64,000 nt of DNA from the NCBI RefSeq assembly GCF_009811755.1, contig NZ_BLIV01000005.1:124001-188000 (forward strand). The letters are read 5' to 3'. Both the position numbers and the translations under genes were made by a program. Below the pieces are notes generated by a model, which was not told the DNA's origin, did not search any database, and was given only the letters and a program-made list of their open reading frames with translations. Shown piece by piece: positions 7,671-59,023 of this stretch (within the stretch, counting starts at the first letter, position 1; the number at the start of each line of letters is the position of its first letter). Source of the DNA: Roseobacter cerasinus (lineage in GTDB: Bacteria > Pseudomonadota > Alphaproteobacteria > Rhodobacterales > Rhodobacteraceae).

Positions 7671-9056
7671 ATGAAGGTCATGGCAAAGCGCGAGATTGCA
7701 CAGCCCGACGAAGCCCCTTTGCCCGTCCGCGCGCGCCTGGCACGGGAGCAGATGGGCATTCTGCGCAGTTTCAACGCGATGCAGGATAACATCCTCAGCA
7801 TCATCCCCGAGATTGCGACACAAAAGCCGGTTGTCTCGGGCCGCACGGCCCGGCGCTGGCATATGGTGATGCATCCGCCCTCCATACGGCGGATCCTGCT
7901 TGATCGCGTGGAGGATTATCCGAAATCCGTGGTCACCAAAAACCTGCTGCAACCGGCTGTGGGCGACTCGCTTTTCATTGCAGAGGGCGCACATTGGCGC
8001 TGGCAACGGCGTCTGACGGCACCGGCCTTCTCACACCGCAACGTGCGCAACCTGGGCCCCATCATGACCAGCGCTGCCGAACGCAGTGCCGCGCGGATTG
8101 CCGGTGCCGGACGGCGAGCAGTGAACCTGCTGGATGAGATGATCGCCGCGACATTTGACGTCATTGCCGATGTCACCTTCAGCGATGACGGCAGCTTTGA
8201 CCGTGCAGACATTCACCGCGCCATCGAGGACTATGTGGCGGAGGCTGGGCGGGTCTCACTGCTGGATGTACTCGGCGCGCCTGACTGGGTGCCCCGCCCC
8301 GCTCGGCTGTGGTCGGCACAATCCATGGCCGAGATGCGGCGGAGCGCGGACGCGGCCATCACTGCGCGGGCCGCGCGCGGCCCCGGTCTGGTACCGGACC
8401 TGCTGGATCTTCTGCTGGCTGGCGAAGACCCGACGACCAAGCGCCGCCTGACCACGGGTGAGTTGCGCGACAACCTGCTGACCTTTATTGTTGCGGGGCA
8501 CGAAACCACGGCGCTTTCCCTCGCATGGTCTTTCTATCTGTGTGCCTTCGATCAAGGGGTTCAGGAACGCGCTCGCGCCGAAGCGCAAGCCGTTCTCCAG
8601 GGCCGCGCCGCGACGGGTGAGGACGTGGACCAGCTGCCTTTCATCCGCCAGATCATCGACGAAGCGTGGCGGCTCTATCCTCCCGCTGGTGTGGTGTCGC
8701 GGACCGCACAAAAGGCAGACATTCTGCATGACGCGGAGATCCAGCCCGGTGACACGGTGATGATTCCCATCTACGCTCTGGGGCGGCACGCGCTGCTCTG
8801 GGAGAACCCTGACCGTTTTAAACCTGAGCGGTTTGCGGACCGCAGGGCCATCGACCGTTATGCCTATCTACCGTTTGGCGATGGCCCCCGCATCTGCATC
8901 GGCGCCTCTTTTGCCTTGCAGGAGGCAGTCATCATCCTCGCCACCCTGCTGTCGCGGTTCCGGTTCACGCCCGTCCCCGGACGAGACCCGAAACCTGTGA
9001 TGATCCTCACCCTCCGTCCCGAAGGTGGCGTGTGGCTGATCGCCGAGCCCGTCTAG
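7671..9056 (+). CDS. cytochrome P450
   Basis: Heme-thiolate monooxygenase, cytosolic form without a membrane anchor. With the start at 7671 (461 residues) the landmarks are: I-helix AGHETT at about 275-280, the K-helix ExxR as EAWR at about 331-334, and the heme loop FGDGPRICIG at about 402-411 with the axial cysteine at 409. The N terminus is uncertain: ATGs at 7671, 7680 and 7596 are in frame and none has a strong ribosome-binding site. The acid-alcohol pair (E-T) in the I helix is intact, so an oxygen-activating enzyme is expected. No ferredoxin or reductase gene is adjacent; the substrate is unknown. Confidence 0.93.
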   Translation: MKVMAKREIAQPDEAPLPVRARLAREQMGILRSFNAMQDNILSIIPEIATQKPVVSGRTARRWHMVMHPPSIRRILLDRVEDYPKSVVTKNLLQPAVGDSLFIAEGAHWRWQRRLTAPAFSHRNVRNLGPIMTSAAERSAARIAGAGRRAVNLLDEMIAATFDVIADVTFSDDGSFDRADIHRAIEDYVAEAGRVSLLDVLGAPDWVPRPARLWSAQSMAEMRRSADAAITARAARGPGLVPDLLDLLLAGEDPTTKRRLTTGELRDNLLTFIVAGHETTALSLAWSFYLCAFDQGVQERARAEAQAVLQGRAATGEDVDQLPFIRQIIDEAWRLYPPAGVVSRTAQKADILHDAEIQPGDTVMIPIYALGRHALLWENPDRFKPERFADRRAIDRYAYLPFGDGPRICIGASFALQEAVIILATLLSRFRFTPVPGRDPKPVMILTLRPEGGVWLIAEPV

Positions 9057-9099
9057 CGCCATACCTAGAAGATCTGTCCAAATCGGTGAGGCCAGGCCG

Positions 9100-9169
9100 C
9101 CCGGCGGGAACCGCCGGGCCTGCGCCCGATGCCGGGGCGGGTGCATGCACCCGCCCCGGCATCGGGCGC
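9100..9169. repeat. paired hairpin element with a 48-bp perfect palindrome
   Basis: Two inverted repeats lie in tandem between the convergent P450 and parC genes: CCCGGCGG-GAA-CCGCCGGG (9100-9118) and a perfect 48-bp palindrome at 9122-9169 centred on GTGCATGCAC. No T-run follows, so it is not a classical terminator, though it may block transcription from both sides. The first hairpin recurs almost identically at 35451-35469. Confidence 0.9.
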
Positions 9170-9261
9170 TTCCCTCGTGGCCAGCCTTGGCCCTGCCAAA
9201 ACTGGCGCTGCACAGTTCGACCGAACCGCAATTTGGAAAGTGCCGGTATCGCCGACAGGAT

Positions 9262-11562
9262 CTAGGTGAACTTATTGTTGCGCGGGAAACCACGCGGGGC
9301 CATGCGGCCCGCGCTGGCGCGCTTGCCGGTCCATTCGCTCAGTTCCGTTTCGGTACGCGTGCGTCCGGCCGGGTCAAGCCAACTCAAACCCTCTGCCCGC
9401 GTGAACGTGGCGGCATCGGACATTCCGCCGTCCTTATAGCGCTGCAACCGGACGCCCTTGCCGCGCCCCATTTCCGGCAGCTCGTCAAGGCCGAACACCA
9501 ACACTTTGCGGTTCTCGCCAACAACGGCCACGCTGTCACCGGTCACCGGCTTGCAGACCAAAGCTCGGGTCTCGCCCCGCACGTTCAGCACCTGCTTGCC
9601 ACTGCGCGTCTGCGCCACGACCTCCTCCTCGGGCACAATGAACCCGTCTCCAGCATCCGACGCCACAAGCAGTTTGCGTCCCGCCTGATGTCTGAGGATC
9701 GTCACAATCTCCGCTTCATTTGGCAAATCTACCATGAGACGCAATGGCTCACCCATGCCGCGCCCACCCGGCAGGTTGGACGCTGACACCGTGTAAAACC
9801 GGCCATTCGTGCCAAAAACCAACAAACGGTCCGTGGTCTCTGCGTGGAAGATAAATCGCGGCCCATCGCCGTCCTTGAACTTCAACTCGCGCGCGAGGTC
9901 GATATGCCCGGTCATTGCCCGCACCCAGCCCATCTGCGAGCACACCACTGTAATCGGCTCTCGGTCGATCATCGCCTCGATGGGCACCTCTTCGACCTCA
10001 GCCGCCTCCTCGATCAGCGTGCGTCGCGCACCGCCGTCGTAGTCCTTGCCGAACTGCTTGCGGGTCTCGCGCAACTGCTGGGTAATCGTCTCCCACTGCA
10101 GGCTCGGATTTTCGAGCAAATCCTCCAGATGCGCGCGCTCTTCCATCAGCTCGGACTGTTCGCGCAGCAGCTCCATCTCCTCAAGCCGCCGCAATGATCG
10201 CAGGCGCATGTTCAGGATCGCTTCGGCCTGAACCTCGCTCAACTCCCCCTCGCCTGGCAGCGGCGAGACATAGTCCGCCTCATCCGTCGCCCGTAGGTGG
10301 CTTTTGCCCCAATCCTCCCGCATCAGCGCTGCCTTGGGGTCGTCATCATAGCGGATGATGTCAATCACGCGGTCCAGGTTCAGGAAGGCAATGATGAAGC
10401 CTTCCAGCACCTCCAGCCGATGGTCGATCTTCTCCAACCGGTGCTGCGAGCGGCGCAGCAACACCTCCTGCCGGTGGTCCAGAAAGGCGCGCAAAACCTC
10501 CTTCATCGAACAGACCTTGGGTGTCACCCCATCGATCAACACATTCATGTTGAGCGAAAACCGCACCTCCAGATCCGAGTTGCGAAAGAGCATGCCCATT
10601 AGAACATCCGCATCCACCGAGCGCGCGCGCGGCTCGATGATCATCCGAACGTCTTCGGCGGATTCGTCACGCACATCCGCCAGGATCGGGATCTTCTTGG
10701 TCTGGATCAGTTCCGCGATCTTCTCGATCAGCTTGGACTTCTGCACCTGATAGGGAATTTCTGTCACGACGATCTGCCACTGACCGCGGCCCAGATCCTC
10801 CACCTCCCATTTGCAGCGCAGCCGGAACGACCCGCGCCCTGTGCGGTAGGCCTTGGCGATATTCTCAGCCGGTTCCACCAGCACACCGCCTGTGGGGAAA
10901 TCCGGACCAGGCACGTATTTCAACAGCGTGTCATCCCGCGCATCCGGTGTCTTAATCAGGTGAATGCAGGCCTCACAGAGCTCAGCGATGTTATGCGGCG
11001 GAATATTCGTCGCCATCCCCACAGCGATCCCGCTGGAGCCATTGGCCAGAAGGTTCGGGAACTGCGCAGGCAGCACCACCGGCTCGGTCAGCGTGCCGTC
11101 GTAGTTCTCGCGGAAATCAACGGCGTTTTCGTTGAGACCCTCCAGCAGCGCCTCGGCCACCGCCGTCATCCGCGCCTCGGTATAGCGGCTGGCCGCGGGG
11201 TTATCGCCGTCGATGTTGCCGAAATTGCCCTGCCCGTCCACCAGCGGATAGCGCACGTTGAAATCCTGCGCGAGCCGCGCCATGGCGTCATAGATCGCGG
11301 CATCCCCATGCGGGTGATAATTGCCCATCACATCGCCGGAAATCTTGGCGGACTTCCTGTATCCACCACTCGAACTCAACCGCAACTCACGCATCGCATA
11401 GAGGATGCGCCGGTGCACCGGCTTCAGCCCGTCGCGCGCATCCGGCAGCGCGCGGTGCATGATGGTGCTGAGCGCATAGGTCAGATAGCGCTCTCCCAGC
11501 GCCCGGCGCAGCGGTTCAGACAGATCGGATGATGTGTCGGGAATGTCGAGATCATCGGCCAT
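9262..11562 (-). CDS. parC: DNA topoisomerase IV subunit A
   Basis: Breakage-reunion subunit that decatenates daughter chromosomes together with ParE (not in this window). The start at 11562 (MADDLDIPDTSSDLSE, 766 residues) is chosen because the extra upstream frame to 11694 is not ParC-like. The catalytic tyrosine is in SRYTEARM at about residue 127 (with the preceding arginine), and the quinolone-resistance region segment HPHGDAAIYDA is intact. The C-terminal portion carries beta-pinwheel-type blades, shorter than in GyrA, which together with MADDLDIPD argues for ParC rather than GyrA. Confidence 0.93.
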   Translation of the reverse strand: MADDLDIPDTSSDLSEPLRRALGERYLTYALSTIMHRALPDARDGLKPVHRRILYAMRELRLSSSGGYRKSAKISGDVMGNYHPHGDAAIYDAMARLAQDFNVRYPLVDGQGNFGNIDGDNPAASRYTEARMTAVAEALLEGLNENAVDFRENYDGTLTEPVVLPAQFPNLLANGSSGIAVGMATNIPPHNIAELCEACIHLIKTPDARDDTLLKYVPGPDFPTGGVLVEPAENIAKAYRTGRGSFRLRCKWEVEDLGRGQWQIVVTEIPYQVQKSKLIEKIAELIQTKKIPILADVRDESAEDVRMIIEPRARSVDADVLMGMLFRNSDLEVRFSLNMNVLIDGVTPKVCSMKEVLRAFLDHRQEVLLRRSQHRLEKIDHRLEVLEGFIIAFLNLDRVIDIIRYDDDPKAALMREDWGKSHLRATDEADYVSPLPGEGELSEVQAEAILNMRLRSLRRLEEMELLREQSELMEERAHLEDLLENPSLQWETITQQLRETRKQFGKDYDGGARRTLIEEAAEVEEVPIEAMIDREPITVVCSQMGWVRAMTGHIDLARELKFKDGDGPRFIFHAETTDRLLVFGTNGRFYTVSASNLPGGRGMGEPLRLMVDLPNEAEIVTILRHQAGRKLLVASDAGDGFIVPEEEVVAQTRSGKQVLNVRGETRALVCKPVTGDSVAVVGENRKVLVFGLDELPEMGRGKGVRLQRYKDGGMSDAATFTRAEGLSWLDPAGRTRTETELSEWTGKRASAGRMAPRGFPRNNKFT

Positions 11563-58932: not shown

Positions 58933-59023
58933 GGACGGCGCAGCCGTCCTGCCCGGCTTTGCCGGGCATAGCCGGGGTGCAGGGGCGCGCGGGCCATGGC
59001 CCGCGCGCCCCTGCACCCCGGCT
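58933..59023. repeat. triple hairpin element with a 54-bp perfect palindrome
   Basis: Three stems in a row between tctA and the AtuA-like gene: GGACGGC-gca-GCCGTCC (58933-58949), GCCCGGC-ttt-GCCGGGC (58951-58967), and a perfect 54-bp palindrome (58970-59023) centred on GGGCCATGGCCC. All three genes around it point the same way, so it is inside or at the edge of an operon rather than a shared terminator. Confidence 0.93.

Follow-up and report, generated by a model that had tools for sequence, protein, structure and literature searches.

Converging genes and the hairpins between them

A cytochrome P450 gene and parC converge, within the window (the whole stretch of 64,000 nucleotides that was analysed, from the source genome, G000, a draft assembly of 24 contigs), on a gap of 205 bp that holds a short GC hairpin and, 2 bp further on, a perfect palindrome (Table 1). 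This arrangement had been described in the first-pass annotation and its features were confirmed. The palindrome is 48 bp long, its 24-bp arms (GCGCCCGATGCCGGGGCGGGTGCA and TGCACCCGCCCCGGCATCGGGCGC) are 100% complementary with a spacer of 0, and the short hairpin reads GCCCGGCGG-GAA-CCGCCGGGC. No T-run follows the palindrome, as had been stated, and a scan found no T-run intrinsic terminator at 9100-9200. Rfam had no family above the gathering cut-off in window positions 8900-9300. The RNA of the palindrome is predicted to form, from either strand, a 22-bp stem capped by a CAUG loop (-55.0 kcal/mol), and the short hairpin has a predicted folding energy of -19.4 kcal/mol.

The same annotation considered palindromes of 48 bp very rare in a cell, because they would usually be deleted or cleaved. 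Chance can be excluded as the origin of the 24-bp arms, since three first-order Markov sequences modelled on the window had arms of at most 9, 10 and 11 bp. The remark on deletion and cleavage was overstated, given that several such palindromes are found in G000 and its near relatives (see below). Moreover, 48 bp is less than the length at which palindromes become unstable in Escherichia coli.

Table 1. Coordinates of the genes, hairpins and palindromes discussed, as positions in the window.
Feature	Position	Strand	Remarks
Cytochrome P450 gene, PF00067	7656..9056	+	converges from the left; start is the gene caller's choice
Short hairpin (SH)	9099..9119	+	9-bp stem, GAA loop
Linker CT, 2 nt	9120..9121	+	usual copies: single A, able to pair within the long hairpin
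Long hairpin (LH), perfect 48-bp palindrome	9122..9169	+	ends GCGCCCG...CGGGCGC family-like, interior not
Tail TTCCCTCG	9170..9177	+	where the family has TTC and a C-rich tail
parC, topoisomerase IV subunit A, PF00521	9262..11562	-	converges from the right; start is the gene caller's choice
Ordinary two-hairpin copy (L209), 68.3 bits	19021..19078	-	convergent gap; C5:143021
Ordinary two-hairpin copy (L201), 76.2 bits	35449..35508	+	codirectional gap; C5:159449
Short hairpin TGCCCGGC-TTT-GCCGGGCA	58950..58968	+	adjoins the second palindrome
Second perfect palindrome, 54 bp, spacerless	58970..59023	+	between tctA and an atuA-like gene, codirectional

A dispersed two-hairpin element

The two hairpins had been noted correctly as sequence features, but that they form one unit, and that this unit belongs to a repeated family, had been missed. 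A search of G000 for the short hairpin with up to one mismatch gave 12 places, at 10 of which a longer hairpin adjoins it (by reading). We have built a covariance model (R1) of both hairpins from six ordinary copies and searched 19 genomes of the genus with it. At E<=0.01 the copies number 33 in G000, 34 in G012, 51 in G010 and 11 in G006, followed by 3 in G008, 2 in G015 and one each in G001, G002, G007, G009, G011, G013 and G014, with none in G003, G004, G005, G016, G017 and G018. At the level of the family, 14 of 61 genomes, with G000 among the 61, had a match, mostly weak. The element is shown by these searches to be a dispersed unit of about 60-95 nt, which consists of a short GC hairpin followed by a longer one with the conserved ends AGCGCCCG and CGGGCGCTT and has multiplied in a small number of genomes within one genus of the Roseobacter group.

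A broad alphaproteobacterial spread was considered and rejected. The junction 15-mer GCCGGGCAGCGCCCG occurs in 42 of 385 genomes of the class, mostly in 1-3 copies, and its reversed control likewise gives single hits in such genomes; it clearly exceeds the control in just two genomes, G000 (11) and another member of the family, G329 (7). The pattern GCGCCCG-N30-40-CGGGCGC mostly occurred no more often than its reversed control, yet it yielded the G006 copy at C27:7669. One copy of the element had no match in the plasmid collection, and the 80 named parC loci gave a single match, at E 0.65. Rfam recognized no element in 20 element loci, where the sole hit above cut-off was an FMN riboswitch elsewhere in one locus (L203:2108-2266, minus strand), which lies near one copy.

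The consensus of 102 copies, from the 100 loci used for the covariation alignment, reads on the short-to-long strand CGCCCGGC(GG)NNN(CC)GCCGGGC A GCGCCCG A NCCCC(C/T) UCGAU GGGGG N GA GGGCGCUUC, followed by a C-rich stretch. The loop letters U, C, G and A are kept in 100, 100, 96 and 100 of the 102 copies. In the internal loop G38 is found in 98 and A71 in 90 of them, while A39 (67) or C39 (29) stands opposite G70 (67) or A70 (34), an arrangement suggestive of stacked mismatches of the G-A type or similar. A weak box, C.GC.GG.C, lies at -9 to -1, upstream of the short hairpin. Since the unpaired letters and this box are strand-specific, the element is polar despite its symmetrical usual setting. 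Further upstream, A-rich pairs at -28/-27 and -16/-15 before the short hairpin, about 12 bp apart, were seen in many of 83 copies; in the larger copy set only the farther one (-28/-27) stands out.

The pairing of the two-hairpin element is strongly supported: 92.7% of 2206 cells are paired over the 102 copies, with two-sided changes at 19 of 22 pairs, figures to be read with an alignment that was fitted to the structure, which favours the pairing score. Two-sided change cells number 222 against 66.9 in shuffles, the related copies among them not being independent. Predicted folding is slightly stronger on the short-to-long strand (median -43.1 vs -41.4), which is the stronger one in 86 of 123 copies. 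G.U pairs number 24 against 30 C.A mismatches when the loop-closing pair is left out and 45 against 30 when it is counted (102 copies).

At parC the window copy matches R1 weakly (28.2 bits, E 0.19); its long palindrome misfits a model whose long hairpin is short. The parC copy of G012 scores 25.7 bits in that orientation. As in the family, the short hairpin stands directly before a long one with the ends (A)GCGCCCG/CGGGCGC, the linker being CT and not A. The UCGAU loop and the G-A/G-A internal loop of ordinary copies (class A) are absent, and the interior is a perfect palindrome. We have filed this copy in a palindromic subclass together with its orthologue at the G012 parC locus, where order and orientation are unchanged, and with the pair C1:462555 (G000) and C27:7669 (G006). 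The second palindrome of the window, at 58970-59023, has an anatomy like that of the family, but its membership is doubtful because its ends are unlike the family's and it is absent from the R1 hits; no orthologue of it was found among the element loci compared.

The genomic setting was determined with gene calls from a home-made codon-usage caller. In G000 we have considered 37 copies (30 R1 loci, the weaker hits L327-L331 and two window copies, including 58950-59023 though it is no R1 hit; the weak hits L332-L335 were left unscored), of which 30 are convergent and 7 codirectional. The 35 copies of G012 comprise 21 convergent, 11 codirectional and 3 inside a called gene, the 11 of G006 comprise 9, 1 and 1, and 40 of the 51 copies of G010 comprise 28, 11 and 1. 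Altogether, 88 of 123 copies are convergent, 30 codirectional, 5 inside genes and none divergent, with 118 of the 123 outside called genes; removing the second members of orthologous pairs leaves 73 of 103 convergent. The background of 208 gaps of at least 60 bp in 464 kb of G000 consists of 37 convergent (18%), 111 codirectional and 60 divergent gaps, against which the convergent excess has a p of 7.5e-39. It persists under a stricter null that admits only gaps with a gene 3' end and counts convergent ones double (88 of 118, p 2.6e-14). In convergent gaps a median of 42 nt separates the stop codon from the element. Codirectional copies occur in either direction (13 in the same and 17 in the opposite orientation), as expected of a two-way element. 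The preference is absent from the 24 best-scoring loci outside the genus (6 convergent, 15 codirectional, 2 inside genes and 1 at an edge), which match weakly and have a long hairpin of another build. In G010, near C6:162.5 kb, two copies (L372:1404-1460 and 1501-1559) lie about 40 bp apart in opposite orientation.

The first-pass annotation had suggested looking at the same locus in relatives, and G012 has there a 46-bp perfect palindrome with different arms. The 3' side of parC was readable in every genome of the genus but G001 (18 of 19), and the element is present in two of these 18, G000 and G012. The other 16 have no hairpin of at least 9 bp (one mismatch allowed) in the first 230 bases past parC and no R1 match in the parC 3' region. 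A convergent P450 gene is found in 14 of the 18, two of which carry the element; the P450-parC gap measures 3-114 bp in the 12 element-free ones, and in G006 the two gene ends abut. A GC-rich double hairpin of another kind, the type GGGGGAG-GCC...GGC-GGGGGCAGCGCCCCC, was seen by eye after parC in G010 and G018 (L030 and L032). At another site, L200, R1 finds the element in G000 only, among 19 loci. In the 15 of 18 relatives with a complete gap there (not G010, G002 and G003), inspection by eye shows a hairpin that is preceded by an A-run or followed by a T-run, and G000 has retained this U-tailed hairpin with the element added beside it. Copies are therefore gained at sites. Among G000, G012 and G006 there are 20 orthologous pairs, with orientation kept in 18 and flipped in 2; only 13 of the 37 G000 copies correspond to one of the 35 in G012.

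Mirrored changes in the arms of long palindromes

A further suggestion of the annotation was to see whether the arms co-vary. They do: between G000 and G012 the parC palindromes have six differing pairs over 48 bp, five of them mirrored and the outermost one-sided; restricted to the 46 bp that are palindromic in G012, the count is five mirrored and none one-sided. The pair C1:462555 (G000) and C27:7669 (G006) differs in three mirrored pairs only. Taken by themselves, these intergenic sites would pass for compensatory evolution of an RNA. In total, four orthologous long palindromes differ in 11 mirrored and 2 one-sided changes, and two of the four lie in genes.

One of these is mutY (Pfam HhH-GPD and NUDIX_4), with a perfect spacerless palindrome of 38 bp in G000 (C2:213591, L054:13591-13628). 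G012 has a perfect 38-bp palindrome as well, one mirrored pair apart (1 mirrored, 0 one-sided), while the G006 version contains one mismatch and is three mirrored differences away from that of G000; between G006 and G012 the mirrored changes turn Arg and Arg into Gln and Leu (by eye). The other is an amidase gene (PF01510) with a perfect spacerless palindrome of 54 bp (G000, C1:250779, L049:779-832); of the 19 genomes, only G000 and G012 show a palindrome there. Its left arm is coding sequence common to the relatives and its right arm is an inverted copy of the left. G000 has an Asp-to-Gly change in the conserved arm with its mirror image in the other; between the two genomes there are two mirrored differences and a single one-sided one, which lies at the centre. 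Palindromes can also be inserted ready-made, as are the Rickettsia palindromic elements, but this origin is unsupported here, the amidase aligning with that of G006 without a change in length. A gene without Pfam match contains an orthologous 46-bp palindrome in G012 (L466:16793-16838) and G006 (L477:6129-6174); the 22-nt arms are identical and the 2-nt spacer is inverted (AA in one genome, TT in the other), although 184 of the gene's 1017 sites differ (18%). At parC no imperfect forerunner was found in the readable genomes of the genus; the mutY palindrome of G006, with its one mismatch, may be a candidate for such a form.

Template switching, or quasipalindrome correction, makes arms alike, as described in the cited part of one report (PMC7202029), and arm homogenization and spacer inversion are given as its products in that of another (PMC8604942). 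Since palindromes in coding sequence show the same mirrored changes, mirrored arms need no selected RNA structure and, as in-gene palindromes change likewise, the positive covariation at parC is no proof of function. The ordinary copies behave in another way. In the 12 of the 20 orthologous pairs that are within the alignment (class A) we have counted 29 one-sided, 10 mirrored Watson-Crick and 8 other two-sided changes, and the excess of one-sided over mirrored changes indicates that the short-term structural constraint is loose. Palindromic and ordinary copies thus evolve differently. The arms at parC are probably kept perfect, or nearly so, by template switching during replication, a mechanism to which the mirrored changes point.

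We have also counted long palindromes (arms of at least 17, loop of at most 4) in stretches chosen without knowledge of palindromes, omitting the window, L051 (fetched for a known hit) and L068 (the G012 parC stretch). There are 2 in 380 kb of G000, 3 in 400 kb of G012 and 1 in 400 kb of G006 (6 in 1.18 Mb), and none in 374 kb of relatives' stretches plus 822 kb of named parC loci, about 1.18 Mb after the one G006 stretch (18.6 kb) in the set L069-L087 was moved to the clade side. This excess (6 against 0, p 0.016, or 0.033 when the coding palindrome of G012 and G006 is counted once) is suggestive only, the comparison sequence being mostly one genome region. It is a tentative idea, which we hold to be possible though rather on the improbable side, that the clade of G000, G012 and G006 is unusually prone to replication template switching, which would make and keep (near-)perfect palindromes of 38-54 bp. 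Switching would then rewrite protein genes such as mutY and the amidase gene and turn two-hairpin copies into perfect palindromes, and the proneness may be tied to the loss or change of a hairpin-processing nuclease. Another inverted repeat of G000 (C3, L058:2470-2539), with 30-bp arms (CCGTCATCCTCGGG...) and a 10-nt loop, may be one more dispersed repeat.

A putative two-way role at transcript ends

For the element itself, a putative role at the 3' ends of transcripts coming from both sides appears the most likely, judging from the setting, the stable hairpins predicted both ways and a scan for U-tailed hairpins. RNA from either gene would fold into very stable GC hairpins that would stop read-through and/or 3'-to-5' trimming, and the transcript ends would arise by intrinsic termination, Rho or trimming. 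In the parC copy the long hairpin would have become a spacerless perfect palindrome, in which quasipalindrome correction would write a change in one arm into the other. The two layers jointly, that is, a dispersed two-way 3'-end module and upkeep of the palindrome by template switching, we regard as about evenly balanced between right and wrong. A bidirectional block had been one of the functions suggested in the first-pass annotation, next to a putative cruciform protein site and a putative target for RNA processing; the convergent preference (88 of 123, none divergent) and the rarity of U-tracts agree with it, while the role itself stays putative. U-tracts (five or more T within the 8-nt window at the element end) occur in 7 of 83 copies in the forward and 2 of 83 in the reverse direction. 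The scan saw no U-tailed hairpin besides the element in 74 of the 88 convergent gaps; such hairpins are found in 14 of 88 convergent gaps with the element and in 9 of 31 without it, no clear difference.

The strongest competitor, somewhat unlikely in our estimate, is a selfish or neutral REP-like repeat that survives where it is least harmful, in convergent gaps, with no part in transcript ends. A copy number that ranges from 0 to 51 within one genus, the few shared copies (the 13 of 37 mentioned above) and the addition of the L200 copy beside an existing terminator all fit such a repeat, and gain beside a terminator and high turnover suit it too. The strand-specific parts (UCGAU loop, GA internal loop, C-rich tail and weak upstream box) could be recognition parts of a mobile element. 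It is countered by the preference for convergent over codirectional gaps, which exceeds the expectation for any 3' end (the stricter null above), and by the lack of a candidate enzyme of the RAYT kind. Spread driven by RAYT was rejected, since PF01797 was found in 4 of the 19 genomes, none of them the copy-rich G012, G010 or G006, with one 44-aa match in G000.

It is clearly less probable that the copies are ordinary bidirectional intrinsic terminators, with arms held perfect by selection that acts on both RNAs. The place between convergent genes and the G.U pairs, no commoner than C.A as expected if both strands must fold, would suit them, but U-tracts are rare and similar mirrored changes occur inside the mutY and amidase genes, where a terminator is implausible. 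More improbable still is a site acting as DNA, either a cruciform or a gyrase or nucleoid-protein site handling positive supercoils between converging genes. The convergent setting and the perfection of the palindrome as DNA might be taken to indicate it. However, cruciforms require negative supercoils and converging transcription makes the opposite, so that the sign of supercoiling is wrong for them here, and ordinary copies carry conserved mismatches and are not perfect palindromes. In favour of protein binding, REPs and BIMEs are described as binding sites for several proteins in the cited part of one report (PMC2817692). An assembly or sequencing artefact has a practically negligible chance: hairpins are hard for short reads and the G000 assembly is a draft, but G012 has its own perfect palindrome with different arms at the same place and the coding palindromes leave the reading frame open.

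Among the literature matches listed, we found no published description of the two-hairpin family, which combines features of known kinds. Like REPs and BIMEs, it consists of short dispersed palindromic units, mostly outside genes, in tens of copies and near gene 3' ends; unlike them, it is built of two unequal hairpins in a fixed order and strongly prefers convergent gaps. G004, as a separate observation, has 10 matches to PF01797 (Y1 transposase family) and yet no two-hairpin match at E<=0.01. Hairpin clusters without U-trails have been reported at operon ends in 13 genomes (PMC8355165, in the part cited), and in Zymomonas, an alphaproteobacterium, convergent gaps are given as 34% of intrinsic terminators against 15% of intergenic regions (PMC7566282, likewise in part), both of which would also agree with a bidirectional terminator. 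The element resembles these in its two adjacent GC hairpins, rare U-tracts, convergent gaps and median distance of 42 nt from stops, and differs in being a repeated family that is conserved in sequence, polar and gained in particular lineages. The parC palindrome and its kin share with quasipalindrome correction, as far as covered in the cited parts of the two reports (PMC7202029, PMC8604942), alike arms, mirrored multinucleotide changes, spacer inversion and nonsynonymous changes in genes. The arms here measure 19-27 bp, whereas the longest yeast arm among the rows listed there has 16 bp, and it may be that the long palindromes here are largely those of a single clade. Nematomorpha mitochondria, too, are described as having long perfect inverted repeats in protein genes (PMC6649704, in the part cited), although those reach 284 bp while the present ones are bacterial and of 38-54 bp.

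If the clade of G000, G012 and G006 is indeed prone to template switching, its genomes would be a natural record of the birth and upkeep of palindromes. If template switching is the right reading of the mirrored arms, mutation alone can produce arm covariation of the kind that commonly passes for proof of a selected RNA structure, and the in-gene palindromes of the same genomes provide the control for arm covariation that is usually missing. And if the two-way 3'-end role is right, a GC-rich bacterial group would be using a repeated, spreading, U-less module that separates converging genes, and its copies would offer a defined set of sites for tests of U-less and two-way termination.
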